64,000 nt of DNA from Desulfofarcimen acetoxidans DSM 771 (GTDB lineage: Bacteria > Bacillota > Desulfotomaculia > Desulfotomaculales > Desulfofarciminaceae). The notes beneath the pieces were generated by a model. The model was not told where the DNA came from and ran no database searches. It saw nothing but the letters and a program-made list of their open reading frames with translations. The position numbers and the translations under genes are program-made. Positions 10,228 through 26,070 of the stretch are shown here, piece after piece (within the stretch, counting starts at the first letter, position 1; the number at the start of each line of letters is the position of its first letter). The stretch lies in NCBI RefSeq assembly GCF_000024205.1, contig NC_013216.1, positions 558,001-622,000 on the forward strand, read 5' to 3'.

Positions 10228-11066
10228 CAGGTGCTCACTCTTTCTTCAGTAAGTTTTACGAAAACATCTTCCAGCTTTGTCTGGCGTATGGTGAACTCGT
10301 CGCGTAACGCTCCTGCATGCTCCAGCGCTTCCTGGCGGGAAGCAAAAAAGTGAAGGATTGTCCGTTCGTCTCGGAATTCTTCCACAACTACCGGTCCCAC
10401 CACTTTTTTTAGCTCTTCCGGTGAGCCGTCCATGATTAATTCGCCTTTTTTCAGCAGTCCAATCCTATTGCAGAGAGTCTCTGCCTCCTCCAGATAGTGG
10501 GTAGTCAGTAAGATAGTAATTCCTCTGCTGTTTAAGCTTTTAATCAAATCCCAGACTTTCCGCCTTATAAATACGTCGAGACCTACTGTTGGCTCGTCAA
10601 GAAGGAGAATCCTGGGTTTGTGCATTAATGCCCGTGCAATCAATACTTTTCGCTTTGTTCCGCCAGACAGAGTGTTAACCAGTGTTCCGGCCTTTTCTTC
10701 GAGGCCGGTAAAAGCCAGCAGTTCCTCAATTCTTATCCTGGCCTGTTCCTGTGGAATGCTGTAAAGCATGGCGTGCAGGCGCAAATTTTCCACCACGGTC
10801 AGTTCCGGTTCAAGGTTGATGTGTTGAGGTACCAGACCCACTTCTGCCTTAAAACGGGTATCGTTGCGGTGAGCACGGCATCCGTTTACAACAATGCTGC
10901 CCTCTGTGGGCATGGTTAAAGCTGTAAGCATCCTGACAGTAGTTGTTTTGCCGGCTCCGTTAGGACCGAGCAAGCCGAAGAATTCGCCGGTTTTAATATG
11001 CAGATTAAGCTTATTTACTGAAACCGTTTGTTTATAATTTTTGCTGACATTTTCAAGTTTAATCAT
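10227..11066 (-). CDS. ABC-2 type transporter ATP-binding protein
   Basis: Soluble ATPase of the NodI/CcmA type: Walker A GLLGPNGAGKTTTVRML (about residues 34-50), signature LSGGTKRKVLIARAL, Walker B ILLLDEPTVGLD and switch His in LLTTHYLEEAE. The open frame extends to 11141, but its first 25 residues do not match the family; MIKLENVSKNY at 11066 is the typical start. That ATG overlaps the end of cbiL by 8 nt, implying coupling. 279 residues. It pairs with the permease downstream. Confidence 0.9.
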   Translation of the reverse strand: MIKLENVSKNYKQTVSVNKLNLHIKTGEFFGLLGPNGAGKTTTVRMLTALTMPTEGSIVVNGCRAHRNDTRFKAEVGLVPQHINLEPELTVVENLRLHAMLYSIPQEQARIRIEELLAFTGLEEKAGTLVNTLSGGTKRKVLIARALMHKPRILLLDEPTVGLDVFIRRKVWDLIKSLNSRGITILLTTHYLEEAETLCNRIGLLKKGELIMDGSPEELKKVVGPVVVEEFRDERTILHFFASRQEALEHAGALRDEFTIRQTKLEDVFVKLTEERVST

Positions 11067-11781
11067 AATTGCAATCCATTGCTGAATGCTTTCTGGCCAG
11101 AATGGTGGACAGATAATTGGGTTTTTTATCTTTGCTGCCATTTAAATTGCATGTGATTTCTTCATCCGCAAACCCGCATCTGCTAATCATTACTGCCTTC
11201 TCAGAAAGTCCATGGCGGTTAAGATGACCGACGATTTGATCATAATTTTTATATACTCTCATCATTACGATACTATCAGAACAGGAAAGCACCTTCTCTA
11301 TTTTTTCATCTGCCAGCGTGGCAGGGACAATACTGAGGACGTCATTGTCCTCGGCCAGAGGAATACCCAGACGACTGGCAGCCGCGCAAAAGGAAGGTAC
11401 ACCTGGTATAGTTTCTATTTTTAAGCCCTTGCCATTTAATAGTTTGAAAATATAAAAATAAGTGCTGTATAACATGGGATCGCCAAGAGTGAGAAAGGCT
11501 ACATTTTTTCCTTCATTGAGAAAAGATATAATGATGTTCTTATTGTGTTCCCAAGCGGCGGCCAAAACATCCGGATCGAAAACCATAGGAAAGACCAGCT
11601 CCAATATATGAGCGTCTTGCCGGATAAAGGAGCGAGCGATAAAGAGGGCAGTGCTGCCTTTCTTTTTCTCGGTGCGGGGGGCAATGACCACATCTGCCTC
11701 CCGAAGTATTTTCACTGCCTTAAGTGTAATCAATTCTGGTTCTCCCGGTCCAACTCCAACACCGTAAAATGTACCTTGCAT
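11059..11781 (-). CDS. cbiL: Cobalt-factor-II/precorrin-2 C20-methyltransferase
   Basis: Tetrapyrrole methyltransferase that puts a SAM methyl on C-20 of the corrin precursor. The N-terminal GVGVGPGEPELITLKAV motif, the LTLGDPMLYSTY stretch and the PGVPSFCAAASRLGIPLAE loop are family hallmarks. Start: an ATG at 11793 lies next to the SD, but GGAGGA sits 5 nt before the ATG at 11781 (MQGTFYGVG), which I choose; 240 residues. No other cbi methyltransferase is in the window, so the rest of the pathway must be elsewhere. The operon also carries a cobaltochelatase and corrinoid uptake genes. Confidence 0.92.
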   Translation of the reverse strand: MQGTFYGVGVGPGEPELITLKAVKILREADVVIAPRTEKKKGSTALFIARSFIRQDAHILELVFPMVFDPDVLAAAWEHNKNIIISFLNEGKNVAFLTLGDPMLYSTYFYIFKLLNGKGLKIETIPGVPSFCAAASRLGIPLAEDNDVLSIVPATLADEKIEKVLSCSDSIVMMRVYKNYDQIVGHLNRHGLSEKAVMISRCGFADEEITCNLNGSKDKKPNYLSTILARKHSAMDCNYD

Positions 11782-11811
11782 AATGTCCTCCATGTAGAAA
11801 TATTTTTTGTT

Positions 11812-12765
11812 TTAAACAGTCTTAAAGTAATCCGGATATAAAACTCGCCCAATTTCTGCGATACCATCCAATAACCGCATGGTGGGACGTGATACCAGTG
11901 CCTCTGGCACCAAGAAAACCTGGTGGTTTTGTATTGCCTTGATGGCCTGGTAACCGGGTCGCAGATATATTTCTTCTTCTCTGGTCTTGTTCATTTCACC
12001 TTTTTGCACAAGGTATACATCAATGTCCCTAGCTTTGGCCAGAAGCCTTTCCTGACCATATGAGGCAATGGTGCTGCCCGGTCTCACCGCTTTAGCATCA
12101 ATCGCCACATTAATGGCCCCGGCCTTTTCCAAAATAAAAGCGGCGATTGAGTCCGGAGTGCAGGTTGTTATGTCCTTAGTTGTCTCAAAGAACACTTTCT
12201 TTCGCTCTTGCTGGGGTATTTTGGCCACCACGTCCCCAATTTTCTTTAATTGGCTGTTAAATTGATCTACCAGTTCGCCGGCTTCTTTTTCCTTTCCTGT
12301 TAGTTTGCCTAGTTTTTTCAGGTACTGAAGAAATTGATCAACATTCTCCGGGTACAGGACCGCAACGGGAATACCCGCGGTTTCCAATTTATTTACAAAA
12401 TCCGGATAATTGTTGGCAATAAAAGTTCTGATAAGCACCAGGTCCGGCTTGGCTGCAATGAGCTTTTCAGCGTCTTCCCGGTAGCTGAAGGACTGTTTTT
12501 TCAGAGCAGAGGGCGGGAAGGACTCGCTGTCGGAAACCCCAATAATTTCATCATTTAGCCCCAGAGAATAAAGGTTTTCCGTATGCCCGGTGTAAAGTGA
12601 TATAATTCTCTTCGCCGGTTCTTTTAGCTTTACTTCCTTACCCAAATCGTCTACCACCATAATATTGTCGGGTGTTGACGCGGGCTTGGTTTGGGCGCAT
12701 CCGGCCAGTATGGTAATTATGAAGATTACTAGAAAAACAGAAATAATTTTGGATTGCTTATTCAT
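11812..12765 (-). CDS. btuF: Corrinoid/iron-type ABC substrate-binding lipoprotein
   Basis: 317 residues with a lipoprotein signal: hydrophobic core then LAGC at about residues 20-23, so Cys23 should be lipidated. The mature part has the FecB/BtuF fold (LGKEVKLKEPAKRIISLYTG, ENLYSLGLNDEIIGVSD, ATGIP-like and DGIAEIGRVLYPDYF ends). BtuF rather than siderophore binding is inferred from the cobalamin riboswitches and the cbi genes in the same operon. It lies 13 bp after the ATPase gene. Confidence 0.82.
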   Translation of the reverse strand: MNKQSKIISVFLVIFIITILAGCAQTKPASTPDNIMVVDDLGKEVKLKEPAKRIISLYTGHTENLYSLGLNDEIIGVSDSESFPPSALKKQSFSYREDAEKLIAAKPDLVLIRTFIANNYPDFVNKLETAGIPVAVLYPENVDQFLQYLKKLGKLTGKEKEAGELVDQFNSQLKKIGDVVAKIPQQERKKVFFETTKDITTCTPDSIAAFILEKAGAINVAIDAKAVRPGSTIASYGQERLLAKARDIDVYLVQKGEMNKTREEEIYLRPGYQAIKAIQNHQVFLVPEALVSRPTMRLLDGIAEIGRVLYPDYFKTV

Positions 12766-12778
12766 GATACTTCTCCTT

Positions 12779-13573
12779 TTATTCCAGATCGGGAAGCAGT
12801 GTCAGATTATACTTGCCGGTAACCGCATGTTTCTTTATTTCTACCTGAACATGGAAAACCTTATTTATCATTTCTTCGTTAAAAACAAGGTTTGCCGGAC
12901 CCTCGCAAATCACTCGGCCTTTATCCATGTATACTAAATATTCGCAAAACATGCCGGCAAAGTTTAAATCATGCAGTACGGCGATTACCGTAACTGCCTT
13001 TTCCGTATTTAGTTTCTTAATTAGTTTAAGCAACTCCAATTTGTGGGAAATATCCAGATTAGATGTAGCTTCGTCCAGGAACAATACTTGTGGGGTTTGA
13101 GCCAGAGCACGGGCCAGGAGCACCCGTTGTCTCTCTCCGCCGCTTAAGCTGGTAATGGCTTTTTGTGCGTGTTCTAAAACACTGCAATGTTCCATACAAT
13201 TGTATACAATCTCCAGGTCTTTGTGAGAAAGCCTGCCCATGCGTCCCAGATGAGGTTTTCGCCCCATCATTACAACTTCCAGCACAGAAAAGGGAAAGTT
13301 AATTGAGCAGTTTTGTGGCACGACGGCGAAACTGCGGGCTATGTGCCGGCGGCTGCAGGAACTCAATTCCTTGCCGTTCCAGGTGATATGGCCGGAGGAA
13401 GGCTTCAGCACACCACACATAATATTGATCAAGGTTGTTTTGCCGCTGCCGTTAGGCCCGAGAATGCCGTAAAAACCTCCCTCACGAATATCAAGGCTGA
13501 CTTCCTGAAGTGCGGTGTACTTTCCATAACACAGGGTCAGGCTGTCAGTTTTTATCAGAACCCCTTGTTTCAA
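12779..13573 (-). CDS. btuD: BtuD/FecE-type ABC ATPase
   Basis: 264 residues: Walker A GILGPNGSGKTTLIN (about 35-49), Q-loop VVPQNCSINFPFSVLEVVMMGRKP region, signature LSGGERQRVLLARAL, Walker B VLFLDEATSNLD and switch His AVLHDLNFA. This is the FepC/BtuD importer subfamily. The gene sits 8 bp downstream of the permease and 13 bp upstream of the binding protein, giving a normal C-D-F importer order. Cobalamin specificity is inferred from context only. Confidence 0.9.
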   Translation of the reverse strand: MKQGVLIKTDSLTLCYGKYTALQEVSLDIREGGFYGILGPNGSGKTTLINIMCGVLKPSSGHITWNGKELSSCSRRHIARSFAVVPQNCSINFPFSVLEVVMMGRKPHLGRMGRLSHKDLEIVYNCMEHCSVLEHAQKAITSLSGGERQRVLLARALAQTPQVLFLDEATSNLDISHKLELLKLIKKLNTEKAVTVIAVLHDLNFAGMFCEYLVYMDKGRVICEGPANLVFNEEMINKVFHVQVEIKKHAVTGKYNLTLLPDLE

Positions 13574-13581
13574 AGTTCCTC

Positions 13582-14649
13582 CTAATACATTTGTTTTTTT
13601 GTTTTAATTTTAAAAATATAACAGAAAAACGGGCCACCCAGCAGGGTGGTCAGAACACCCACCGGAATCTCCGCAGTCAGCAGGTTTCTGGCGATGGTAT
13701 CCGCTCCGCTAAGAAGAAGCGCCCCTCCCAGCGCTGATGCGGGGATCAGTATTCTGTGATCCGGCCCCACAATCATGCGCATCAGGTGAGGGACGATTAA
13801 CCCTACAAAGCCGATTATTCCGGAAATCGAAACACAGGCCGCGGTAATCATGGAAGAAGTAATCAGGAGAATAGTAATGACCTTTCCGTCATCAATACCC
13901 AGTTGCCTGGCGGAGCTGACTCCCAGACTCAAGATGTTCAGATCATCTGCGTAATAATAACAGATTAGTAATCCGGCTGCGACAGGGGGCAGGCACAATA
14001 ATACATGATGCCAGCCCCTGGAAGCAAAGCTCCCCATCAGCCAGAATACAATCGACCCGACTCCTTCGCCGGCCATGCTTTTTAAGAAGCTGACAGCTGC
14101 GGACAGTATGGCGCTGACAATAACCCCCGAGAGGATCAGGTTGGTTACTGCCAGTGTGCCGTTAACCAGGGCGAGGCTGTACACGGCTCCCAGAGCAACA
14201 ATAGCCCCTGCAAAAGCAAAAAGGGGCACGGTCAGCATAGCTAAACTTCCGGGAAGGAAAATGCCGAAAAATATGGCCAGCGCAGCCCCGAAAGCCGCGC
14301 CGGTGGATACACCGAGGGTATAGGGATCAGCCAGAGGGTTTACCAGGAGACCTTGTAGGACTGCCCCGGCAGTAGCCAGCCCGGCTCCCACCAGAACAGC
14401 CGATAATATTCTGGGCAACCTGATATCCAGTATTACTGCCCGGTGAATATCGTCCAAGCCGGCAACTGTCTTGCTGTCAGCCGACAAAAGAGAAAAAATG
14501 ATTCTGGTTATCTCCCAAGGGGGTATTTTGATAACGCCCAGGCCGGTAAAGATAAGGCAGCCGGTGACCAGGAAAATAACCAGTATAATCAGCACCAGAA
14601 ATCTTCGTTTTTCTTTTTTTCTGTGAGACAGAATTAATTCATGCTGCAT
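13582..14649 (-). CDS. btuC: BtuC/FecCD-type ABC permease
   Basis: 355 residues, about ten membrane segments. Family motifs: RLPRILSAVLVGAGLATAGAVLQG near residues 99-122, NPLADPYTLGVSTGAAFGA, and the C-terminal GLIVPHLMRMIVGPDHR. First gene of the BtuCDF-like set, about 100 bp downstream of cbiK. A lysine/arginine-rich tail (KRRF) precedes the first membrane helix. Substrate by context: cobalamin, cobinamide or another corrinoid. Confidence 0.9.
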   Translation of the reverse strand: MQHELILSHRKKEKRRFLVLIILVIFLVTGCLIFTGLGVIKIPPWEITRIIFSLLSADSKTVAGLDDIHRAVILDIRLPRILSAVLVGAGLATAGAVLQGLLVNPLADPYTLGVSTGAAFGAALAIFFGIFLPGSLAMLTVPLFAFAGAIVALGAVYSLALVNGTLAVTNLILSGVIVSAILSAAVSFLKSMAGEGVGSIVFWLMGSFASRGWHHVLLCLPPVAAGLLICYYYADDLNILSLGVSSARQLGIDDGKVITILLITSSMITAACVSISGIIGFVGLIVPHLMRMIVGPDHRILIPASALGGALLLSGADTIARNLLTAEIPVGVLTTLLGGPFFCYIFKIKTKKQMY

Positions 14650-14751: not shown

Positions 14752-15699
14752 CTATTTTTCTTCACCGGCAGGCTTTGAATTAAGTTCATTCATCGCTTGT
14801 TTTATACGATTCATGTAAATGTTTTGAATCTCCTTATTTTCGCCAAGACCGTGAAGATAGCTATCCACTGCAAAACCTTCGGCTTTCAGCTGGCTCGTAT
14901 GCGAATCTTTCTCTTCACCTGCCATGTCGTTATTGGCATGGTCGCCGGCTACAAGCATAAACGGAATCAAAGTAATTTTTTTGATATTATTAGCTTTTAA
15001 TTGCGGAATTACTTCCTCCAGCGTCGGCGTTCCTTCCACCGTATATACATAGGTGTTTTTAAAGCCCAGCTCGTTTATTGTGTGCTGCAGTACTGTATAA
15101 TAGGCATTGGCCGGATGAGGCGTTCCGTGTGCCAGCACGAGAAGCGCTTCATCGTTTTTCATTGAAGACGGTAATTGTGTTTTTAGTGCTTCCAGTGCAG
15201 TGATAAAATCATTTGGCTCGTTTTCTTGTCCCATATAGTACAAGAGGGGAAGACCGCACGAGATCTTTTTAAAAGAATTGTCGTTTTTGTATTGGTCTAC
15301 CACTTTTTTAATGTAATCGTATTCCACGCCTGGAATTATATTCAACATTTGCACCACAACAGTAGTATAGCCGTCATTTTTTAATTTTTGTAAGGCTTGC
15401 TCCGGTGTATCTACCTCAATTCCATCGCGTTCTTTCAAGACTTTAATAATCGTATGGGAACTGAAAGCTCGTCTAACATCCCAGCCTTTAAATTCTTCTT
15501 TAGCTCTGTTCTCCACCGCTTCAATTGTAAGCTTGCGGGTATCTTCATAAGTGGTTCCGAAGCTAACGATCAAAATGGCTTTTTTCTCGGTTTCCGGGTT
15601 AGTGTTTTGTGCGGTAGGATTTTGTTTGCCTGTATTGCTGCACCCCATCAGTAAAAATAATACAAGTATTACGCTGCTCAAACTAATGGCCCGTTTCAT
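14752..15699 (-). CDS. cbiK: Exported sirohydrochlorin cobaltochelatase CbiK (lipoprotein)
   Basis: Inserts Co(II) into sirohydrochlorin in anaerobic cobalamin synthesis. The mature part matches CbiK: KKAILIVSFGTTYEDTRKLTIEA near residues 39-61, and the two metal-site histidines in LVLAHGTPHPANAYY and MLVAGDHANNDMAGEE. Unusually it begins with a lipoprotein signal (ISLSSVILVLFLLMGC, Cys at about residue 20) and a linker rich in Asn/Thr, so it should act outside the membrane. Exported CbiK forms are known in Desulfovibrio. ATG with AAGGAGG 8 nt before it; that SD can be masked by a leader hairpin. First gene after two tandem cobalamin riboswitches. Confidence 0.92.
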   Translation of the reverse strand: MKRAISLSSVILVLFLLMGCSNTGKQNPTAQNTNPETEKKAILIVSFGTTYEDTRKLTIEAVENRAKEEFKGWDVRRAFSSHTIIKVLKERDGIEVDTPEQALQKLKNDGYTTVVVQMLNIIPGVEYDYIKKVVDQYKNDNSFKKISCGLPLLYYMGQENEPNDFITALEALKTQLPSSMKNDEALLVLAHGTPHPANAYYTVLQHTINELGFKNTYVYTVEGTPTLEEVIPQLKANNIKKITLIPFMLVAGDHANNDMAGEEKDSHTSQLKAEGFAVDSYLHGLGENKEIQNIYMNRIKQAMNELNSKPAGEEK

Positions 15700-15707
15700 A
15701 AATAGAT

Positions 15708-15762
15708 CCTCCTTCTGAATGTTAGTTAGTAAGTCAGTCAGTTTATTCAGATTCTAAGGAGG
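15708..15762 (-). promoter_or_regulatory. cbiK: SD-sequestering hairpin of cbiK
   Basis: In the minus-strand RNA, CCUCCUU-AGAAU-CUGAAU (15762-15745) can pair with AUUCAGAAGGAGG (15720-15708): 13 base pairs interrupted by one 5-nt bulge, with a 24-nt loop. The second arm contains the whole AAGGAGG ribosome site of cbiK. This suggests translational control by the nearer riboswitch. No U-tract follows. Confidence 0.6.
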
Positions 15763-15831
15763 AAGTATTGATATTATTAGATACAAGTCCAACACCCCCT
15801 TATCCACGCAAGGCCTAACGTTGGGGAAAAC

Positions 15832-16068
15832 AGGCAGGTTTCCTGGCTCCGGGTCATTGCTGCCTTACGCCTTCCCAGGTCAATACCCAGTGACATAAGA
15901 TTGGAACATTCCTTTTCAGAATAAGTGGCAAGCAATTTTGCCGGTTCCAAATGGATTGTTCCCTTTTCCTTTTGTAAGGCAGCTCACCGTTACAGTGGCG
16001 GGACCGCGCCGGACTCGCACCGGCTTCCCTTTTAACCCCTGTCCCTCGGGAAGGGGCACCTGTTTTCC
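15832..16068 (-). ncRNA. Cobalamin riboswitch, proximal copy upstream of cbiK
   Basis: Read on the minus strand it contains the class hallmarks in order: GAAGCCGGTGCGAGTCCGGC then GCGGTCCCGCCACTGTAA (16030-15985 region), and the 3' B12-box GAGCCAGGAAACCTGCC near 15850-15832. Aptamer only; no intrinsic terminator between it and cbiK, consistent with the SD-masking hairpin downstream. Confidence 0.93.
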
Positions 16069-16080
16069 AAATTAAAAACA

Positions 16081-16115
16081 AAAACCTTAGCTCTCCCGAG
16101 GGGTGCTAAGGTTTT
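16081..16115 (-). terminator. Intrinsic terminator between the two tandem riboswitches
   Basis: 11-bp stem AAAACCTTAGC/GCTAAGGTTTT (16105-16115 with 16081-16091 on the minus transcript) followed by TTGTTTTTAATTT. It lies just downstream of the distal cobalamin riboswitch and would let that aptamer control transcription before the proximal aptamer is made. Confidence 0.75.
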
Positions 16116-16175
16116 AGCGTCTGATGAATACAGAAATCTAAGACCGCACACTTTTCCCCGGAAAGCGTTTTGGAT

Positions 16176-16350
16176 AATGCCAGCCAGGTCTCCTGACTTA
16201 TGGGAAATAGCGCCATACTCCGCCTTCCCGGGAATATTCCCAGTGGCTTATCGGGAGTTGGCTGCCCATTTACAGTGGCCGGACCGTCCAGGATTCTCAC
16301 CTGGTTCCCTGTGCCTTTCCTAAAAGGCAACTGGCATTAGACTGATTGAG
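16176..16350 (-). ncRNA. Cobalamin riboswitch, distal copy
   Basis: On the minus strand: a GGTGAGAATCCTGGACGGTCCG-like core, GGCCACTGTAAATGGGCAGCC, CCACTGGGAATATTCCCGGGAAGG and the B12-box GTCAGGAGACCTGGC near 16200-16183. It differs clearly in sequence from the proximal copy, so the pair is not a recent duplication. Followed by the terminator at 16081-16115. Confidence 0.92.
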
Positions 16351-16452
16351 TGATTTAATTCATGGTAAAGTTATATCATAAATCAAATATTGTGTCCATA
16401 CTTCCGGATAATCTATGTCGAGAATCTATATTATTAAATCAAATATGCTCTT

Positions 16453-16480
16453 CTGACAAATGATCTTTTTATGGTATATA
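16453..16480 (+). promoter_or_regulatory. Possible promoter for the plus-strand cobalamin operon
   Basis: CTGACA (16453-16458) and TATATA (16475-16480) with a 16-bp spacer, about 60 bp before the plus-strand riboswitch. The 165-bp gap between the divergent riboswitches must hold both promoters; this is the best plus-strand candidate I can see. Confidence 0.35.
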
Positions 16481-16537
16481 CAACACAGCCATAACGTGAT
16501 ATTATGAATAATCAAAAAATAATTAGGAATATAAATT

Positions 16538-16711
16538 CATAACCGGAGCAGGGAGCTTTATCTGAATGATAAAGCTTAAAAGAGAAGCCGGTGCGAGTCC
16601 GGCGCGGTCCCGCCACTGTAATGGGTAGGAGCCTCACACTATGTCACTGGGACAGGATATTCCCGGGAAGACGTGAGGTTTACGATGATCCTAAGCCAGG
16701 AAAACTGCCTT
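16538..16711 (+). ncRNA. Cobalamin riboswitch upstream of the intrinsic-factor-like/ECF operon
   Basis: Class hallmarks in order: GAAGCCGGTGCGAGTCCGGC, GCGGTCCCGCCACTGTAATG, CACTGGGACAGGATATTCCC with GGGAAG, and the 3' B12-box CTAAGCCAGGAAAACTGCC (about 16690-16709). It is followed by a 10-codon frame and an intrinsic terminator at 16786-16826, so control is likely by premature termination. It is the third cobalamin riboswitch within 900 bp. Confidence 0.95.
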
Positions 16712-16756
16712 GTTCTTTATTGCCACATATCTACGTGTGATAGGAGGTGGTTTTTA

Positions 16757-16789
16757 ATGTTTATGCCATTTTTGCCGGCATCGCCATAA
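16757..16789 (+). other. 10-codon open frame with perfect SD inside the riboswitch leader
   Basis: TAGGAGGTGG (16741-16750) lies 6 nt before ATG at 16757, which opens the frame MFMPFLPASP and a stop at 16787-16789. The stop overlaps the first base pairs of the terminator stem. It may be a leader peptide whose translation affects the terminator, or a gene remnant. Confidence 0.4.
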
Positions 16790-16826
16790 AATCCCGATTC
16801 ACTTGTGGATCGGGATTTTTATTTTT
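16786..16826 (+). terminator. Riboswitch expression-platform terminator
   Basis: Stem AAATCCCGAT/ATCGGGATTT (16788-16797, 16807-16818 region) followed by TTTTTATTTTTGT, about 110 bp before the SLH-protein start. Confidence 0.85.
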
Positions 16827-16934
16827 GTATTGGTTGCAATTAAGTTTAAAATTATTTGTTTTATTAAATATTGCTAATTTTAGAGATAATTAAAGATGTT
16901 GCGAACTTGTTATGGGAAAGGTGGATATTAGATA

Positions 16935-19900
16935 ATGAGGAGAAAAAACACAAAATTACAATTCATAACGTTATCAGTAATGATATTTTTTATCCTGAAC
17001 ATTATTCAGTTTTCCGGATTAACCAGCCAGTCAGCAAACGGGCAAGAGGCTGTATATACTTCTGCTGAAATGGCGGCAAAAGCAGTTGATTTTATTAACG
17101 ATAAGTATAAGGCGGGAGAGAAAATTGATGGCTATACCGCTTATGTGCTGGCTATGGCCGGGCAGGATTTGTCAAGTGAGAAATGGAGCATAAACGGCAC
17201 TAGTTTAAGAAGTGAAATCGAAAACTTAGCCGACTTAATGGGAAATAATGTTAATTTAATAAATTATGTTTGCTTAACCCAGAATAATGACGGCAGTTTC
17301 GGCCCTTATGCCAATGAATATGGGACAAAGGTGCCGCTGCAGGCTTTGTCGACAGTTAAAGAAGACATTACTGTCGGCAGCGATGTTTACAATCAGGTGC
17401 AGAGTGCCATTGATAATGCTGTAAACTTTTTTAAGACAAAATATCAAAACGGCGGCATGACCTATGATGTAAACGGTTGGAGTTTCGATTACCGCTGTGT
17501 TGAGGCACTGGCAAAATCGGGGGAGGACCTGTCAGTGGGCGGTTGGGTCTATAATGGTGTATCCCTCAAAGACAGCATAATGCTTTCTGCCAATAGTACG
17601 GCGCGGTCCATTAAAAAGGATTCATCTGTACAGGACGCTGTGTATCTGTCCAAAGAACTTACGGCTCTTTATGCTGTTGACAAAGCTTCAACCGACATTG
17701 ATGTTCTGGCCGGTGCGATTACAGCCAAACAAAATGGTGACGGCAGTTTCGGGACAAATATGTTTGACCATATTATGGTTCTGAATGCTCTCGGAAAAGC
17801 TGGAGCAATCAGTAATATTGACCAGACAAAGGCATTTAATTTTATTGATAATTTGAAAGAAATTCATAAGAACTCCTGGGGTCAAGACGCCGGTGTAGCC
17901 TGGGGCTCACAGTACACAAGCGGTTTTGAAGAGTCTGATACCACTGCCCAGGTTATTACGGCACTCAGTTATTTTTCTGAGGCGAAGAACGAAGGCAGCG
18001 ATGTTTATAAGACTATACAGGGTGGTCTTACCTATCTTAACGACGTGCAAGATGCTGACACGGCGGCCATAGTCCGTATAGAAGGTGACAGCACCTTTTC
18101 CTCTGCTGAAACACTGCTGGCACTCAAGTCACTGGGATATACTTTTGACCAGTATACAGGGACTGCTTCAAAATGGGTGAAAAATTCCCGGACGAAAACT
18201 ATAACTCAGTGCATAAAGGCAGTGAACAAATGGGGTGACGCCGGACGCCTGGACAGGCTGATTAGACTTTTGGCAGACCGGCAAAAAGCAGAGGATCCGG
18301 GTAAAGGTTCTTTTGAAAACAGCGTATACAGCGATATGTGGGCTTATTTAGCCCTTGGTGAAGCCGGAAAGCTTGACGGGCTTAACACCGGCGATGCTAA
18401 AACGTATATTTTATCTAAGCAGGATACTTCCGGTTCCTGGGGAGAAATCTTTGATCAATACTACCCTGATTTCCTTTCCACAGCACAGGCTATCCGGTCG
18501 CTCAGCTATCTGCCGGAAGCCGGTGAGGCAGATGTTCAGGCAGCAATAAATAAAGGTCTGAATTATCTGAAAACCCTTCAGCGGGATGACGGCAGCGTTA
18601 GCGCAAAAGATGATGACCCTGCTGTAGATAATTCTGAGCTAATCATAACTTTAAATAGATTGAATATAGATCCACAAGGTGCTGAATGGACAAAAACTGT
18701 TGATGGCAAAAAATTTACTCCGGTATCTTATCTGATGAATAACACAATGAATGCCGATGGCAGCTTTGGCGCATCTAAAAATGTTTTTGGAGCCACTGAA
18801 GCACTTTATGCATATTTAATTCAGGACGGTACCGGTAACCCTGGCGGAGACGGTCCAGGAGGCGGCTCGTCTGAGAACCGGTGCAGTGTTAATATCGCGA
18901 TAGTGGGAAAGGACGACGAAATTATTTACAGACCGGGCAGTGTTATCCTGGATAAAACTTCAAAATGGGGTATTACTGCTATGGGCGCACTCCATGCCAC
19001 AGGTTTGAGCTATGTAGGCGACAGCAGTTTTGTTAAGAGCATTGATGGGCTGGCTAACAGCGGCATGAACGGGTGGATGTACAGTGTTAACGGGGTTGTG
19101 CCTATGACTACTGCTTCTGATAAAGTGGTTAAAGAGGGGGATAGGGTAATCTGGTGGTATAGTACGGATATGAATTCATCAGGACCTAGTTGGGACAGTC
19201 TCTTAAAAGGATCTGCAGGTGCCGGGGGCAATCAGTCGGCAGCTGCTTCATCAACTAGCCTCATTGAGCAAAATAAAGAACTTCCAGATGCATTGCAGGT
19301 TTCGGAAAAGGCTCTGGCAGCGCTGGAGCAGATAGCCCTGCTGCTTAATCCTCAAGACATTGAAAAAGAAAATACATTGGATGCATCGGTTCAGGACGAC
19401 GAGATTAATAATGTAATTGTAGTAGGCAGCAGGCAGCCTTTAAATCTGGCTTTGCTCAAAACATTAAAAAAGGAACTGGATCAGAATGAGGTACAGTTAA
19501 CACAAAAAGTTGAAGCGGACAGTGGAGCTGTCCTGTTGGATGCCAAAGAGGAACTGGCTCTGGTTATTCCGGCTAAGTCACTTAATAAGGATATGGAAAT
19601 AAACGTTAAGGAAGCAGCTGCCGGCAATCAGCAGGAAACTGCCGCACCGTCAGGTTTTCGTCAGGTGTCAGCAATTTACGATTTTGGTCCCAAAGATACT
19701 GTTTTTACTATGCCGGCGACATTAACCTTTAAGCTGGTTATGCCTCCTTTGGTTAAGCCGGATAGACTGGTTTTGGCCTATTACGATAAAGTTGCCGGCA
19801 AGTGGGTATCTGTCCCTGCTGTTGTGGATTTGGATAAAGGTTTAGTCCTGACCAAGCTGCGGCATTTAGGACAATATGCGGTTTTTGCCCGCGAGTCTTT

Positions 19901-20441
19901 GAAGACCTTTGCTGATGTAAACGAAACTTCTTCTAGTTGGGCTAAAGATTATATAGAAAATCTGGCCGGGGCCGGAATTGTTGACGGTATAGATGCTACA
20001 CACTTTGAACCGTCAAGAAAGGTGACCAGGGCAGAATTGACCAGTTTATTGGTTAAAGCCTTAGGCATATCCACAGATCAAAGCTCTGCTATCTCTCTGA
20101 AGGATGTTCAAGCCGATGATTGGTACGCGGGGGCGGTTGGGGCAGCTCAGGCAGCCGGTTTGATTACCGGCTATGAAGACGGCACTTTCCGGCCGGGCAA
20201 CACTGTTAGCCGTGAAGAACTGGCGGTAATTCTGGTGCGCGCAATGAAACTTGAGTCTGACCAGGAAAAAATGTGGTTTGCCGACATAGATAAGATTAAC
20301 TCCTGGGCCAGAGACAGTGTGTTCACAGCTTCATCAAAAGGTCTCATAAAAGGTTTTCCTGATGGAACTTTTCGTCCTGATGTTGCTGCCGGCCGGGATG
20401 AGTGTGCGGTTATAATCTTTAGGATGTTGAATGAATATTAA
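16935..20441 (+). CDS. Cell-surface intrinsic-factor/transcobalamin-like protein with SLH anchor
   Basis: 1168 residues. Signal peptide about 1-38. Residues ~40-635 carry repeated alpha/alpha-toroid (prenyltransferase-like) motifs QNNDGSFG (~115), KQNGDGSFG (~265), KQDTSGSWG (~494), RDDGSVS (~549), ADGSFG (~606). After a Gly/Pro linker, residues ~647-758 form a DUF4430 (transcobalamin-like C-terminal) domain ending in GDRVIWWYS. A beta-sandwich region (~780-985) precedes three SLH domains (~990-1168) for S-layer/cell-wall attachment. Toroid plus DUF4430 is the domain order of animal intrinsic factor and transcobalamin. It follows a cobalamin riboswitch and heads an ECF-transporter operon, so I infer corrinoid capture at the cell surface. 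AAAGGTGG lies 10 nt before ATG. Confidence 0.9.
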   Translation: MRRKNTKLQFITLSVMIFFILNIIQFSGLTSQSANGQEAVYTSAEMAAKAVDFINDKYKAGEKIDGYTAYVLAMAGQDLSSEKWSINGTSLRSEIENLADLMGNNVNLINYVCLTQNNDGSFGPYANEYGTKVPLQALSTVKEDITVGSDVYNQVQSAIDNAVNFFKTKYQNGGMTYDVNGWSFDYRCVEALAKSGEDLSVGGWVYNGVSLKDSIMLSANSTARSIKKDSSVQDAVYLSKELTALYAVDKASTDIDVLAGAITAKQNGDGSFGTNMFDHIMVLNALGKAGAISNIDQTKAFNFIDNLKEIHKNSWGQDAGVAWGSQYTSGFEESDTTAQVITALSYFSEAKNEGSDVYKTIQGGLTYLNDVQDADTAAIVRIEGDSTFSSAETLLALKSLGYTFDQYTGTASKWVKNSRTKTITQCIKAVNKWGDAGRLDRLIRLLADRQKAEDPGKGSFENSVYSDMWAYLALGEAGKLDGLNTGDAKTYILSKQDTSGSWGEIFDQYYPDFLSTAQAIRSLSYLPEAGEADVQAAINKGLNYLKTLQRDDGSVSAKDDDPAVDNSELIITLNRLNIDPQGAEWTKTVDGKKFTPVSYLMNNTMNADGSFGASKNVFGATEALYAYLIQDGTGNPGGDGPGGGSSENRCSVNIAIVGKDDEIIYRPGSVILDKTSKWGITAMGALHATGLSYVGDSSFVKSIDGLANSGMNGWMYSVNGVVPMTTASDKVVKEGDRVIWWYSTDMNSSGPSWDSLLKGSAGAGGNQSAAASSTSLIEQNKELPDALQVSEKALAALEQIALLLNPQDIEKENTLDASVQDDEINNVIVVGSRQPLNLALLKTLKKELDQNEVQLTQKVEADSGAVLLDAKEELALVIPAKSLNKDMEINVKEAAAGNQQETAAPSGFRQVSAIYDFGPKDTVFTMPATLTFKLVMPPLVKPDRLVLAYYDKVAGKWVSVPAVVDLDKGLVLTKLRHLGQYAVFARESLKTFADVNETSSSWAKDYIENLAGAGIVDGIDATHFEPSRKVTRAELTSLLVKALGISTDQSSAISLKDVQADDWYAGAVGAAQAAGLITGYEDGTFRPGNTVSREELAVILVRAMKLESDQEKMWFADIDKINSWARDSVFTASSKGLIKGFPDGTFRPDVAAGRDECAVIIFRMLNEY

Positions 20442-20446
20442 TATGT

Positions 20447-20471
20447 GTTGCGGCATGTTTCATGCCGCAAC
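20447..20471 (+). terminator. Intercistronic hairpin (11-bp stem)
   Basis: GTTGCGGCATG-TTT-CATGCCGCAAC just after the SLH-protein stop. The following sequence (GGATTAAATAAAAATT) is only weakly U-rich, so it is probably a partial terminator or processing stem lowering expression of the downstream genes. Confidence 0.5.
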
Positions 20472-20537
20472 GGATTAAATAAAAATTATTTGTGTTTAGA
20501 CTTCTTTATAACCGGCTTAGTTGGTTTGTGATGAGGA

Positions 20538-21269
20538 GTGGGGATTCTGAAAAAGAAAATAATCTATATTACACTAACACTGGTGATTTTAGCAGCTATT
20601 CTGGGCCCGTCTATTTATGCAAATAAATTCAGCAGAAACCAGATTGCTGCACAATTCAAAAATAACACAACCACCCAGACGGGTGAAAGCAAGTCGCTGC
20701 CGGCTAGCGATGCGTCAAAAGCCGGAGAGCAAAAAACAGAGGCAAAACAAGAAGCGGAGCTAAAAACAGGTGATGCTATGCCGTTTCAAGAAAGCGAAGC
20801 AACGGACAAAGATATTAAAACAAAGCCTGTTGATAAAAATAACAATTCAGGGCTTAGCGAAAATAAAGATAGCGCCGGACAGTTAAATAAAAATGCTGCG
20901 GCGCCGGACAGTTCACAGGAGATTTCCCGCACTGTTGGCATGGCTGTAGTTGGCAAGGAGGGGGAATTGCTCTATGCGCCTGGCAGCGTTACCGTAACCT
21001 CCAAAAATATATGGGACACCACGGCGTTGGGTGCTTTGGACGCTACCTCCCTGCCTTATAAAGTGTCCAGCGGGTTCTCAGGTTTTGTTGAGGAAATTGC
21101 CGGTTGCCGTAATAAAGGACAGTCAGGCTGGATGTATATGGTTAACGGTGAAGTTCCGGGAGTTTCCGCCAGCCAAAAACAGGTGAAAACGGGAGATAAA
21201 GTTATCTGGTGGTACAGTAAGAGTATGGATGCTCCAATGCCCGATTGGGATGCTTTGTTAAAAAAATAA
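20538..21269 (+). CDS. Membrane-anchored DUF4430 (transcobalamin beta-domain-like) protein
   Basis: 243 residues: Lys-rich start, one hydrophobic segment (IIYITLTLVILAAILG) without an obvious cleavage motif, a charged low-complexity linker of about 100 residues (rich in Lys, Glu, Asp, Asn), then a DUF4430 domain (~130-243) with GWMYMVNGEVP and VIWWYSKSM, very like the one in the SLH protein. It has no toroid. The GTG at 20538 overlaps the SD (GAGGAG 20533-20538); an in-frame CTG at 20547 is 8 nt from that SD and may be the real start. It probably sits on the outer face of the membrane and hands ligand to the ECF transporter encoded downstream. Role inferred. Confidence 0.85.
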   Translation: MGILKKKIIYITLTLVILAAILGPSIYANKFSRNQIAAQFKNNTTTQTGESKSLPASDASKAGEQKTEAKQEAELKTGDAMPFQESEATDKDIKTKPVDKNNNSGLSENKDSAGQLNKNAAAPDSSQEISRTVGMAVVGKEGELLYAPGSVTVTSKNIWDTTALGALDATSLPYKVSSGFSGFVEEIAGCRNKGQSGWMYMVNGEVPGVSASQKQVKTGDKVIWWYSKSMDAPMPDWDALLKK

Positions 21270-21308
21270 TGATGTTAGTATATTATTGAATTTGTTGGGG
21301 GGAAAATT

Positions 21309-22685
21309 ATGTTGCTCAGAAGTTACTCCGGCTGCGTTGCTGTCATTTTGTTTGTTTTATTGGTGTTTCCCGCTCTGGCGCAGGCACAGCAGTCTGCTGA
21401 TATAAAGCCTTCGATGGACAAAGCGGTGAAATACCTGTTGGATTATGAAAAAGAGCAAAATAGGCCTCTGTCTTTGTGGAGCTACACAGCTATGGCCGCG
21501 GCCGGGCAAAACCTGGATAATACTAAAGTTGAGCAGGCTTTGCTGCAGCAGCTTAACGTATCGGAAGCTACTGCTGAATACGGCCTCCTGGTTATTGCCT
21601 TAGTGGCTGCCGGGGAGAATCCATATGATTACCGGGGGCAGAATTTTATTGGGAAAATTCAGTCTGCCTGTCTTCCTGACGGAAAGTTTGCGGATAATAT
21701 CGACGGCAGCGGACAGGGGGACGGTGGGGAACAAGTATTAGCCAATGCACACATCTGGGCAGTGCTGGCCCTGCATGCCGCCGGGGCGGACAGTCAGGAT
21801 GCCGCCCGTCAAAAAGAGTGGCTGATTTCCCAGCAGCATGAAGATGGCGGTTTTAACTGGTGTGTCAGCGACAAGAAATCGGATGTCGATTCTACCGGTA
21901 TGGCCTTAATGGCTCTGGGTGCTTTGGGAGAGAGAGAAGACAGCATAACAGTGAAAAAAGCATATGCATACCTAAAAAGCGTGCAGGAAAGTGACGGTGG
22001 CTTTGCTTCCTGGGGAGCGTCTAATGCCGAATCCTGCGGTATGGTTATAGAAGGCTTAACAGCGGTTGGGATTAAACCGGCAGCTGAAGAAATGAATAAT
22101 GCAGGTGGCAATCCGGTTGCGGCTATGCTTAATTACCAGTTAACTAACGGCAGCTTTGCTCATATAAAAGGCAGCGGAGCCAATGAGATAGCGACTTATC
22201 AGGCTTTAATGGCTTTATCGGATGAATATTATGGTAAATGTATTTACCAGCGGCTGGCGGACAAAAGTTTGGGAAATCAGGTTCCTGCTGTGCGAAAAAT
22301 TAAATTTCGGGTAGATGAAAATGATTACGAAGTTCAAGCGAACGGGCAAACCAGCTTGGAAGAAGCCGATGTCGCGCCTTTTTTGCTGAATGGGCGAACC
22401 TATGTGCCGCTGCGTTATCTGGCACAGGCTTTAGTTATACCGGAGGCAGGTATTTTGTGGTCGCCTGAAGAGCAAACGATAACACTTAACCATAATGGCA
22501 TTACTGTCAAGCTGGCTGTCGGCAGCAATCTCATATATGTTAATAATGTTGCTTTATCGCCAATGGATATTGTGCCGGTAATCAAAAACGATCGTGTTTT
22601 TCTACCGGCCCGTTATGTAGCTGAGTCCTTTGGCTGTCAAGTAGCCTGGCAGGAAGCAACACAAACGGTTATTATTACACAGTAG
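21309..22685 (+). CDS. Secreted alpha/alpha-toroid protein with C-terminal stalk domains
   Basis: 458 residues. Signal peptide ~1-25 (cleavage near ALAQA). Residues ~30-320 show toroid repeats: LPDGKFADNIDG, QQHEDGGFNWCVSD, VQESDGGFASWGASN and LTNGSFAHIKG, each followed by a helix with ALMAL or similar, as in intrinsic factor/squalene-cyclase-like barrels. The last ~130 residues are a stalk (copper-amine-oxidase N-like) domain: LNGRTYVPLRYLAQAL and NDRVFLPARYVAESFG. It lacks DUF4430, which the previous gene supplies. ATG preceded by GGGGGG. In the riboswitch-led operon, 17 bp before ecfT. Confidence 0.87.
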   Translation: MLLRSYSGCVAVILFVLLVFPALAQAQQSADIKPSMDKAVKYLLDYEKEQNRPLSLWSYTAMAAAGQNLDNTKVEQALLQQLNVSEATAEYGLLVIALVAAGENPYDYRGQNFIGKIQSACLPDGKFADNIDGSGQGDGGEQVLANAHIWAVLALHAAGADSQDAARQKEWLISQQHEDGGFNWCVSDKKSDVDSTGMALMALGALGEREDSITVKKAYAYLKSVQESDGGFASWGASNAESCGMVIEGLTAVGIKPAAEEMNNAGGNPVAAMLNYQLTNGSFAHIKGSGANEIATYQALMALSDEYYGKCIYQRLADKSLGNQVPAVRKIKFRVDENDYEVQANGQTSLEEADVAPFLLNGRTYVPLRYLAQALVIPEAGILWSPEEQTITLNHNGITVKLAVGSNLIYVNNVALSPMDIVPVIKNDRVFLPARYVAESFGCQVAWQEATQTVIITQ

Positions 22686-22710
22686 ATTTTTTTGCTAAGG
22701 AGTGTTGGGT

Positions 22711-23640
22711 GTGCGGGAAAAATTGTTTTATCAGGAAAAAGGCCTCTTCATACAAAGCCTGCACCCGTTTACATCTGTAGTTTATCTGGGTACGCTGCTA
22801 TTCCTGTCCTTAGCCTTTAACAACCCGCTTTATTTACTCGGAATATTAATAATGATTGTTTTAGCGATATGGGCGGCGGATGGTTGGAAGACCTGGGAAA
22901 CATATATGATAATAAGTTTGCCCATGATATTGTTGATTATTGTCATAAACCCCTTAATTAACAGCGCCGGAAAAACTGTTTTATGGTATGGTCCTCATAT
23001 TCCGTTTTGGGGCCGCCTTAATATTTCTTTGGAAGCTATATGCTACGGAGCTGCTATGAGCGTCAGGCTTTTGGATATTATCAGTTTGTTTTGCCTGTAT
23101 AATATAATCGTTCACCCGGATAAAGTCTTGAACCTGTTTTCCAGATTTGCAGGTAAATCCACGCTGGTAATATCCTTGTCTACCAGGCTGTTTCCGAGCA
23201 TGTTCAGGGAACTGGAGAATGTTAAAGATGTCCAGCGGCTGCGAGGTGTTGACTTCAGACAAGGGACAATCAAGGAGAGAATTAAGAAACATTTTTCTTT
23301 GATTAATATATTGCTTTTGTCTTCTCTGGAAAACTCACTGGGCATAGCAGAATCTATGCAGGCTCGCGCCTTTGGCAGCGGGCCTCGCTCCGTTTACTCC
23401 GCACATATGCTGAGACCGAGAGATATACTGTGCCTGAGCGGCAGTTCTCTGGCACTGGGAATAAGTATCTGGGGATTGCTGCGCGGTTTTGGTATGTATA
23501 ATTTTTACCCGCAGCTGGATTTTTTAATCAATGATCCGGTAACTGTAGTTGTGTTGGCTGCTGTTATGTTAAGTTTATCCGTTCCGGTATTGTTGAGTTG
23601 GGGGTGGCAGTATTGCCGGTTTATGAAATCAAAGATCTGA
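22711..23640 (+). CDS. ecfT: ECF transporter transmembrane (T) component
   Basis: Energy-coupling-factor T subunit linking the ATPases to the substrate-binding S component. About 309 residues with five to six membrane segments and the Ala-Arg-Gly-type coupling motif AESMQARAFGSG near residues 212-223. The open frame reaches back to GTG 22702, but AAGGAG (22697-22702) is 8 nt from the GTG at 22711, which I prefer. It overlaps the ATPase gene. The T, A, A and S functions all lie together, so this is a dedicated rather than shared ECF module. Confidence 0.9.
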   Translation: MREKLFYQEKGLFIQSLHPFTSVVYLGTLLFLSLAFNNPLYLLGILIMIVLAIWAADGWKTWETYMIISLPMILLIIVINPLINSAGKTVLWYGPHIPFWGRLNISLEAICYGAAMSVRLLDIISLFCLYNIIVHPDKVLNLFSRFAGKSTLVISLSTRLFPSMFRELENVKDVQRLRGVDFRQGTIKERIKKHFSLINILLLSSLENSLGIAESMQARAFGSGPRSVYSAHMLRPRDILCLSGSSLALGISIWGLLRGFGMYNFYPQLDFLINDPVTVVVLAAVMLSLSVPVLLSWGWQYCRFMKSKI

Positions 23641-25358
23641 TTTATTATTATCCTGAGGCTGAAAAACCTGCCCTGGACAGGATTAGTCTTGATATTGAAG
23701 AGGGTGAGTTTGTTTTGGTGGCCGGTGGGTCCGGTTCGGGTAAGTCTTCCCTGGCCAGGGTCTTGTCCGGGCTGCTGCCGGACTTTTATGGCGGGCGTTT
23801 TGGTGGCAAGGTGTTGTTTAAGGGAACTGATTTGCGCAGTATGGACCGGCGTAAGCTGGCGCGAAATGTAGGCATGGTCTTTCAGGATCCGGAGAAACAA
23901 TTAATAATGACAGGTGTCGAGGCTGAAATTGCTTTTGGTCTGGAGAATCTTGGTTTACCAAAAAAAGAAATGATGCGCCGTGTGGCTGAGGTGATTGGTT
24001 TTCTGGATTTAGCGGCAATAAAGCGGGAGTTTACCGCTGATCTGTCCGGCGGGCAGAAACAGAAACTGGCCCTGGCTTCTGTTTTGGCTATGCAGCCGCA
24101 GGTCTTAATTTTAGATGAGCCTACTTCTCAGCTGGATCCTGTGGCAGCGGAAGATTTTTTTAATCTAGTTAGAAGATTAAATGAAGAGATGGGTTTTACT
24201 GTTGTCTTAATTGAGCAAAGGCTGGAAAGGTGCTATCATTTGGCTGACCGGGTATTGCTTATGGATGGCGGAAAAATTGTATGCGCGGGCAGGCCGGATC
24301 AGGTGGTTTCCTGGTCGGTTCAAAGAGATAAATTTTTTCTTCCCCCGGTAGCCAGGTTCTTTTCTCTAATGGGTTTTTCCAGTGTTCCGGTAACCATCAA
24401 AGACGGTAGAAAGAAATTGCGAATATCATTGAAAGGAAAGCATTATTCAGGTCAGGCGGATAAGTGTTTGATGAATACTCTGAAGAAAAATGTTCCGGCC
24501 AAAGCGGAAAATAGTATGCCTCCGCTGGCTGAAGTGAAAAATTTATGGTTTACCTATTCCAATGGCAAGGAAGCATTGCAAAACATCAATTTACAAATCC
24601 GGGCCGGTGATTTTGTAGTTGTCCTGGGGGAGAATGGAGCCGGCAAATCAACTTTGTTAAAAACAATGACGGGTCTTTTACAACCGGGGCGCGGCAAGGT
24701 CTTATACCGTGGGGCTGACTTTAACAGAAATAAAGAGCAGTATATGGGCCGAAAGGTAGCCTATCTTTCTCAAAACCCTAACGACTATCTTTTTCAACGC
24801 ACTGTGGAAGATGAACTTATGTTTACCTTGAAGAATTGCCAGATGGAGGACGACGGTATTGTTGATAAACTACTGGCGGATTTATATATAGATTCTTACA
24901 GGAAGGTGAACCCGCGCGATTTAAGCTGTGGAGAGAGACAGCGGGTGGCCCTGGCTTCGGTGCTGGTAACCAGGCCGGAACTTTTGGTGCTGGATGAACC
25001 GACCAGAGGAGTAGATTATCAAATTAAAGCCGATTTGGGCAATTATTTGTCCGGCCAGGCCAAAGCCGGGGTAGGAGTGCTTTTAGTTACCCATGATGTG
25101 GAATTTGCCGCCGAATATGCTTCACGGGTAATTATGATGTTTGACGGTCAAATAATTTGTGAGGGCACAAAACATGAGGTTTTAGGCACGTCAGTATTCT
25201 ACTCCCCGCAAATCTGCAAACTTTGCACCGGCTATTTTGACAATATAGTGACATTTCAGGAAGCTTTGCAAAAAATCGGGCCTTTGTTATCCTGCCGGGC
25301 AAATTGCCTTGATCAAGATAAAGGGAGTGATGGTTTTGAACTCAGACACATACAATAA
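23613..25358 (+). CDS. ecfA: ECF transporter ATPase with two fused ATP-binding domains
   Basis: One chain holding both ECF ATPases. Domain 1: Walker A GGSGSGKSSLARVL (~33-46), signature LSGGQKQKLALASVLA, Walker B VLILDEPTSQLD. Domain 2: GENGAGKSTLLKTMTG (~345), signature LSCGERQRVALASVLV (second Gly replaced by Cys), Walker B LLVLDEPTRGVD. The frame is open from TTG 23598; TTG 23613 (giving MPVYEIKDLIYYYP) is 5 nt after GGGGTGG and fits the family start. It overlaps ecfT by 28 nt and the S gene by 23 nt, implying coupled translation. Fused EcfAA' is typical for dedicated ECF systems. Confidence 0.91.
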   Translation: MPVYEIKDLIYYYPEAEKPALDRISLDIEEGEFVLVAGGSGSGKSSLARVLSGLLPDFYGGRFGGKVLFKGTDLRSMDRRKLARNVGMVFQDPEKQLIMTGVEAEIAFGLENLGLPKKEMMRRVAEVIGFLDLAAIKREFTADLSGGQKQKLALASVLAMQPQVLILDEPTSQLDPVAAEDFFNLVRRLNEEMGFTVVLIEQRLERCYHLADRVLLMDGGKIVCAGRPDQVVSWSVQRDKFFLPPVARFFSLMGFSSVPVTIKDGRKKLRISLKGKHYSGQADKCLMNTLKKNVPAKAENSMPPLAEVKNLWFTYSNGKEALQNINLQIRAGDFVVVLGENGAGKSTLLKTMTGLLQPGRGKVLYRGADFNRNKEQYMGRKVAYLSQNPNDYLFQRTVEDELMFTLKNCQMEDDGIVDKLLADLYIDSYRKVNPRDLSCGERQRVALASVLVTRPELLVLDEPTRGVDYQIKADLGNYLSGQAKAGVGVLLVTHDVEFAAEYASRVIMMFDGQIICEGTKHEVLGTSVFYSPQICKLCTGYFDNIVTFQEALQKIGPLLSCRANCLDQDKGSDGFELRHIQ

Positions 25359-26070
25359 TCAGGCAAACCCTTTAATGAAAATTTTATTCCCTTTTTCCTT
25401 GCTGGTAATTCTGGGTTTGTTATTTGCCAGCATCAGGCAGGATAGTTTTTTACTTAAACAGGGTTGGGGATTGCTTTCAGCGGAAATTATTGTTATAGCG
25501 CTGGCTTTTTGCTACTGGGGATTTGAGAAGAGCAGAATATCAGCCCGCGAGATATCTTTTATTGCTGTGTTGGGCACAATTGCAGCCGTGAGTCGTGTTC
25601 CCTTTGCCGCTTTGCCGGGGGTGCAGCCTGTTACGTTTATAGTTATCATATCCGGTTATGTGTTTGGGTCACGGGCCGGGTTTATGGTCGGCTCCACAGC
25701 GGCCCTTGTTTCTAACCTTTTTTTGGGCCAAGGACCCTGGACACCCTGGCAAATGTTTGTCTGGGGTTTGGCCGGTGCGTCAGCCGGTTTAATTAAAAAG
25801 ATTATTCCCAAAATCGGGACCAGGAGTTTGATAATTTTCTGCTTCTGCTGGGGTTATCTTTACGGTTGGATTATGAATCTGTGGTTTTGGACAGCTTTTG
25901 TTCAGCCCTTAAGCTGGAAGTCTTTTGTTCTCACCTATGCCGCAAGCTTTTGGTATGAAACTTTTCACGCCGTAGGAAATGTTATTTTTTATCTTCTTTT
26001 AGGCACTGGTTTTATTGAAATATTAGAGCGCTTTCGCAGAAAGCTGAAAATAGAGATTATTGATGAGTGA
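25336..26070 (+). CDS. ECF transporter substrate-binding (S) component, probably for a corrinoid
   Basis: About 244 residues, six or more membrane segments. The motif FIAVLGTIAAVSRVPFAALPGVQ (its key part SRVPFAALPG) followed by ISGYVFGSRAGFMVG and a GPWTPWQMFVWGLAG loop is typical of ECF S components. AAGGGAG lies 8 nt before TTG 25336. Established knowledge: B12-riboswitch-linked ECF systems (CbrT family) import cobalamin. Here the riboswitch plus transcobalamin-like partners argue for cobalamin or cobinamide, but the sequence alone does not fix the ligand. Last gene of the operon; I see no strong terminator in the following 190 bp. Confidence 0.85.
   Translation: MNSDTYNNQANPLMKILFPFSLLVILGLLFASIRQDSFLLKQGWGLLSAEIIVIALAFCYWGFEKSRISAREISFIAVLGTIAAVSRVPFAALPGVQPVTFIVIISGYVFGSRAGFMVGSTAALVSNLFLGQGPWTPWQMFVWGLAGASAGLIKKIIPKIGTRSLIIFCFCWGYLYGWIMNLWFWTAFVQPLSWKSFVLTYAASFWYETFHAVGNVIFYLLLGTGFIEILERFRRKLKIEIIDE

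Follow-up and report, generated by a model that had tools for sequence, protein, structure and literature searches.

The window, that is, the whole 64,000-nt stretch of DNA analysed here (NC_013216.1, positions 558,001 to 622,000), comes from the sulfate-reducing bacterium Desulfofarcimen acetoxidans DSM 771. Under gathering thresholds, it holds exactly three Rfam matches, all of them to the cobalamin riboswitch family RF00174 and all full length (1-189/189). Because their scores and E-values lie far beyond the RF00174 cut-off of 31.5 bits, chance can be ruled out. Two of these aptamers lie in series on the minus strand upstream of cbiK, and the third lies on the plus strand. The features of the locus are as follows, with L036 and L034 denoting cbiK loci of other genomes.

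16370-16398, minus strand: promoter-like site TGGACA-17-TATAAC, extended -10 (TG), immediately ahead of the distal aptamer (own scan, 11 points)
16166-16349, minus strand: distal cobalamin aptamer, type A (core A-U; RF00174 113.6 bits, E 1.1e-27; tree and core typing)
16151-16165, minus strand: distal P13 hairpin, whose 5' side and loop could form an antiterminator with the terminator loop
16081-16115, minus strand: intrinsic terminator between the aptamers, 11 bp, T tail 16080-16074 (sequence, fold, finder score 13.2)
15816-16078, minus strand: proximal cobalamin aptamer, type B (core G-C), with an inserted arm (RF00174 101.1 bits, E 4e-24; tree)
15892-15970 (approximate ends), minus strand: structured 79-nt insertion within the proximal aptamer's accessory arm (seen by alignment to L036 and L034)
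15789-15824, minus strand: proximal P13 (CCAAC/GTTGG and CCTTG/TAAGG) with L13 CGTGGA, kept in three orthologues
15756-15801, minus strand: anti-sequestor, AAGGGGGTGTTG (15801-15790) with CAATACTTCCTCCTT (15770-15756) (duplex energies)
15707-15763, minus strand: SD-masking hairpin, SD AAGGAGG at 15714-15708 (fold; compensatory pair in L036)
14752-15699, minus strand: cbiK, CbiK-family cobaltochelatase with a lipoprotein-type leader (PF06180, E 6.5e-96)
13582-14649, minus strand: FecCD/BtuC-type permease (PF01032; BtuC best, below cut-off)
12779-13573, minus strand: ABC ATPase, corrinoid/heme type (profile matches)
11812-12765, minus strand: substrate-binding lipoprotein (Peripla_BP_2), BtuF-like (profile match)
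11059-11793, minus strand: cbiL, precorrin-2 C20-methyltransferase (TIGR01467, over cut-off)
16534-16726, plus strand: third cobalamin aptamer (RF00174 111.8 bits, E 3.4e-27)
16935-20441, plus strand: DUF4430/SLH surface-protein gene downstream of the third aptamer

The cbiK gene starts 116 nt past the proximal aptamer, and its product scores 321.1 with the Pfam CbiK model (cut-off 26.2) and 247.7 with the NCBIfam model SiroCoChCbiK, below the cut-off of 400. With the btuCDF-like genes and cbiL it appears to form a B12-synthesis and uptake operon under tandem control. The CbiK proteins of loci L032, L034 and L036 carry an extra C-terminal stretch of ~110 residues that is absent from the window CbiK (alignment A1). 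The third aptamer is a single divergent element ahead of a different operon. The plus-strand region 16534-26070 has the look of an operon for the capture and uptake of corrinoids: this aptamer is followed there by the DUF4430/SLH gene, another DUF4430 gene and genes for ECF-type transporters. A preliminary description of this DNA had placed three riboswitches within about 0.5 kb of one another; the third is indeed on the other strand, but the three span 911 bp (15816-16726). The whole genome (G000) has 21 RF00174 matches, 13 of which fall within 66 kb (C1:2078120-2143667), several of them ~1 kb apart and on one strand.

The two minus-strand aptamers are complete and divergent, as had been proposed, and neither fails the RF00174 covariance model. 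They are separated by 87 nt, filled by a P13-like hairpin and the intrinsic terminator and containing no ORF of at least 90 aa; two complete units thus stand in tandem without an intervening ORF. The proximal aptamer described earlier is present, but it runs on to 15816 and carries a 79-nt insertion that the earlier account lacked. The strands of the GCTGCCTTAC/GTAAGGCAGC stem flank this insertion, whose MFE of -21.7 was equalled by 0 of 1000 shuffles. At loci L137-L147 and L150, from further genomes of the order, the RF00174 aptamers are in many cases ~275-283 nt long, with a minimal form of 210 nt at L150. These aptamers carry a palindromic extension at the tip of the terminal accessory hairpin, in most cases with arms like CAGCACTCA ... 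TGAGTGCTG around a variable middle. The extension differs from the insertion in the window and looks like an inserted element that recurs or a tertiary module that is conserved.

The terminator between the aptamers lies exactly at the coordinates first proposed for it (16081-16115); its stem has 11 bp, its loop 13 nt, and a T-rich tail follows on the minus strand. A simple terminator scan had missed it because the loop limit of that scan was 8. Since a terminator follows aptamer 1, the earlier view of the distal unit as transcriptional holds at the sequence level. When applied to shuffled sequences, the terminator finder was positive in 5 of 210 after aptamer 1 and in 13 of 210 after aptamer 2. 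Upstream of the terminator, positions 16164-16156 can pair with 16101-16093 (duplex -13.9 kcal/mol), and the MFE fold of the platform holds a similar pairing of the distal P13/L13 with the terminator loop, which may act as an antiterminator. Comparable distal pairings were found in L036 (-13.0 kcal/mol) and L131 (-15.1 kcal/mol), and weak ones in L032 (-8.6 kcal/mol) and L033 (-8.9 kcal/mol). The candidate antiterminator of the window lies mainly within the terminator loop and is less classical than those in L036 and L131, and the 141-nt platform fold is just modestly better than dinucleotide shuffles (z -0.67).

The proximal platform is of another kind. No terminator was scored by the finder after the proximal aptamer of the window, and the predicted SD-masking hairpin was recovered by folding. 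The hairpin folds with -15.0, -19.2 and -20.3 kcal/mol in the window, L036 and L034, respectively, energies matched by fractions of 0.010, 0.000 and 0.002 of mono-nucleotide shuffles (for L036, the shuffle mean is -8.5 kcal/mol); the SD region of the window alone is less striking by dinucleotide shuffles (z -1.69). In the three orthologues, 8, 9 and 9 of the 9 positions of its core helix are paired, and the lone two-sided change, U-A to C-G in L036, is compensatory. The anti-sequestor, in which the anti-SD pairs with the 3' side of P13 and the nucleotides after it, is mutually exclusive both with P13 and with the SD hairpin; its duplex energies are -14.7 (window), -12.4 (L036) and -11.8 kcal/mol (L034). 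When the SD of L036 was forced open, the resulting fold did not contain the anti-sequestor, which in this locus was seen just as an isolated duplex. P13, anti-sequestor and anti-SD are strongly conserved across the three genomes (alignment A6, 92% mean identity), and the best-conserved parts of the leader include both anti-sequestor partners, which fits a switch.

A covariance model of the proximal platform (R1) scored 122.6, 120.7 and 116.9 bits in G000, G101 and G095, respectively, and at most 41.8 bits elsewhere in the order and 45.5 bits in a sample of 398 genomes of the phylum. These scores, together with the aptamer tree (see below), therefore identify the proximal unit as a distinct, narrowly distributed orthologue tied to cbiK. 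The short pattern GGATAAGGGGGTGTTGG was rejected as a marker of this platform: it matches 8 of the 113 genomes of the order with at most one mismatch, and just the three exact matches have a riboswitch, none of the five one-mismatch loci (L043, L044, L046, L048 and L050) having an RF00174 match.

CbiK homologues occur in 21 of these 113 genomes. Besides the window's own locus, 13 of the 20 CbiK loci have an RF00174 match upstream on the same strand, and one (L036, genome G101) has two. G101 holds the whole arrangement, namely, a promoter-like site, a distal aptamer, a terminator, a proximal aptamer with an insertion similar in size and place to that of the window, P13, the SD hairpin and cbiK, with no terminator after the second aptamer. 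The interpretation of the tandem is thus backed by an orthologous doublet before cbiK in a relative. Other relatives have only one of the units before cbiK, the proximal one in G095 and the distal one, with terminator-like hairpins recognised by eye, in G096 and G097. Each unit therefore seems able to work alone, which suggests that either may suffice. These single riboswitches share target and aptamer family with the window, but they comprise one aptamer and one platform. Among 80 named CbiK loci outside the order, all of which were scanned (15 + 65), one doublet was found upstream of cbiK (L127, a Desulfitobacteriaceae MAG) and no further case combining the two mechanisms, the second unit of L127 being followed by a terminator as judged by eye. 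Of the three cobalamin aptamers that share a strand ahead of cbiK in the region L127:1198-2855, two make up the doublet; by their core letters, the order of the aptamer groups looks reversed (B then A). In Propionispora sp. 2/2-37 (L063:5192-5713), a cobalamin doublet lies downstream of cbiK, with both units seemingly followed by terminators.

Across the order, we found 507 RF00174 matches in the 113 genomes (3 of them below the cut-off). Picking pairs by eye from the match tables (same strand, gap of at most 500 nt), and leaving out one pair in G063 (~2.234 Mb) with one member below the cut-off, gave 21 same-strand doublets in 21 genomes. As 42 of the 507 aptamers are in doublets, tandem cobalamin riboswitches are frequent in the order. 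A terminator lies within 150 nt of the first aptamer in 20 of the 21; the exception, in G105, is an odd doublet with a gap of 436 nt and a truncated second aptamer. The second aptamer is followed by a terminator in 17 of the 21 according to the finder and in G087 and G088 by eye; the remaining two are the window and G101. The layout of transcription then translation is thus found in 2 of the 21 doublets, both before cbiK. The other 19 resemble the window in aptamer family, in the kind of first platform (18 of 19) and often in having type A before type B. Unlike the window, all 19 have a terminator as second platform too (17 recognised by script, 2 by eye), and they precede DUF4430-type, membrane-protein or other genes, never cbiK.

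With a terminator after aptamer 1, none after aptamer 2 and an SD hairpin, the window has, at the level of sequence, the transcriptional first and translational second unit of a bi-mechanism tandem; that the two units share a ligand class is indicated by their common Rfam family. Its best reading, which we hold to be probable, is a bi-mechanism OFF/OFF tandem on one transcript, with transcription termination followed by a block of translation. The leader of the cbiK - btuCDF-like - cbiL operon would then carry two independent cobalamin OFF switches. RNA polymerase, we infer, would start just upstream of the distal aptamer. With a corrinoid bound there, the kissing loop L5 would hold the distal P13/L13, a contact that belongs to the known cobalamin riboswitch fold. 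This would block the antiterminator formed by P13 and the terminator loop, and the terminator at 16081-16115 would end transcription. Transcripts that escape termination would carry the proximal aptamer, where corrinoid binding would favour P13 and break the anti-sequestor AAGGGGGUGUUG / CAAUACUUCCUCCUU, so that the freed CCUCCUU could mask the cbiK SD; with no ligand, the anti-sequestor would leave this SD free. A steeper response is a reasonable expectation from OFF switches in series.

The aptamers might instead read different corrinoids or concentrations, as a two-input NOR gate or a two-threshold switch, rather than the same signal. A tree of 71 aptamer rows falls into two groups (branch support 98/98), the three proximal rows being in one of them and the four distal rows (window, G101, G096 and G097) across that branch, so the mutual divergence noted earlier is old enough to exclude a recent duplication of one aptamer, in contrast to G085-G088, whose two copies are close. 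Set against each other, the distal and proximal groups each have a supported branch (99/89; dist_win and prox_win), a value that compares those groups only and leaves the other 64 rows uncounted (G098_1 stands among the distal rows). Inserted arms had been cut from the tree rows by a script rule, under which G097_2, G105_1 and cbiK_L027 kept unusual lengths. By tree group, 12 of the 21 doublets are A then B, 6 A-A, 2 B-B and 1, the doubtful G105, B then A. These two old groups and the bias of 12 to 1 speak for different inputs. The bias, with p 0.003 if the doublets are independent, shrinks to ~5 to 1 when they are collapsed by family and target (binomial p 0.22), and the preference for A then B is for this reason just suggestive.

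By core letters, we typed 151 rows, namely, the 71 of the tree and 80 singletons sampled from the 465 aptamers not in doublets (9 rows without core or box were left untyped). The first base of nCGG covaries with the y of AGyCAGG, with 67 G-C, 63 A-U, 8 G-U and 4 non-pairs among the 142 typed rows; the sampled singletons include 45 G-C and 22 A-U. The covarying columns are drawn unpaired in the RF00174 consensus line, and their covariation may reflect a known tertiary pair. The clearest core difference between the groups is thus an exchange of A-U for G-C that preserves a pair (130 of the 151 rows are A-U or G-C, and 8 more are G-U), and letters that stay paired in this way argue only weakly for a different ligand. 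The earlier suggestion that the two aptamers, both full RF00174 matches, respond to different corrinoids is therefore not supported. Published cobalamin riboswitches are also broadly responsive: in the accessible part of PMC9600662, all 38 that were tested responded to more than one corrinoid, with no strong association between selectivity and the function of the target gene. We accordingly consider different inputs unlikely. We give still less credence to a wider version, in which the tandems of the order join two old groups, A (promoter-proximal and terminating) then B, the B unit before cbiK being translational with an inserted RNA domain and the pair sensing two corrinoid thresholds or forms.

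It is decidedly improbable that only one aptamer is functional and the other a decaying relic or redundant copy. The distal aptamer of the window does sit on a long tree branch (0.74), and relatives have one unit or the other only, but both aptamers exceed 100 bits and have intact cores, the two platforms are intact as well, and G101, a genome of another family, has kept the doublet.

As for the start of transcription, TGGACA-17-TATAAC is the top-scoring site in 15600-16600 in our own scan; a stricter fixed-rule scan lacked it because the last base of its -10 is C. A TGGACA-/TAGACA-type site with TG before the -10 is also the best upstream match for aptamer 1 in many of the 21 doublets. More generally, a promoter-like T(G/A)GACA-17-TAnnAT with an extended -10 recurs ahead of the first aptamer, both in the window (16370-16398) and in many doublets. 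A promoter between the aptamers, which the preliminary description had named as the finding that would speak against a common transcript, has no candidate above background in scans for the sigma-70 consensus: the spacer has no promoter-like site above 8 points and its best one (8) is no better than shuffles. With a promoter-like site upstream and none in the spacer, a single start before both aptamers, and hence a shared transcript, is supported but not proven. That two separate transcripts exist, an unrecognised promoter between the aptamers starting a short constitutive proximal leader so that the elements are not in series, is very improbable: the scans used the sigma-70 consensus only, the proximal unit of G095 must be started without a distal one, and the G101 spacer, at 290 nt, has enough room for a hidden non-sigma70 promoter, which counts against a single transcript, but the 87-nt spacer of the window is mostly P13 and terminator and holds no site better than background, and a well-placed extended -10 site precedes its distal aptamer, as in many doublets.

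The bi-mechanism OFF/OFF reading can be set beside published tandems. According to the available part of PMC9481103, 26 AdoCbl riboswitch doublets have been reported, and bi-mechanism tandems were defined with SAM-II/SAM-V, platforms not having been comprehensively evaluated; the bi-mechanism entries in its Table 1 are SAM combinations only. As in the window, those AdoCbl doublets have two cobalamin aptamers in series in one leader before one gene, but there they are listed as pseudo-cooperative, without their platforms being judged singly, whereas the second platform of the window would act on the SD. The SAM-II/SAM-V tandem likewise places a terminator-controlling riboswitch first and an RBS-controlling one second for the same ligand class, but its ligand and aptamer classes differ from those of the window. 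In a tandem, the riboswitch that comes second may regulate either transcription or translation (PMC12452182, as far as its available text goes). Our literature search, which may have missed riboswitch work on D. hafniense, returned neither a published cobalamin doublet of the bi-mechanism kind nor a description of this locus. AdoCbl doublets and bi-mechanism tandems for SAM are thus both in the literature, and what appears to be new is the bi-mechanism pairing for cobalamin, which is conserved in a distant relative.

One bacterial order is thus rich in tandem cobalamin riboswitches, whose second platform is mostly, though not always, a terminator. The cbiK leader offers a testable case in which a single class of small molecule would act at two levels on the same operon by way of two divergent aptamers, and the single-unit versions of each half in relatives are natural, ready-made controls.
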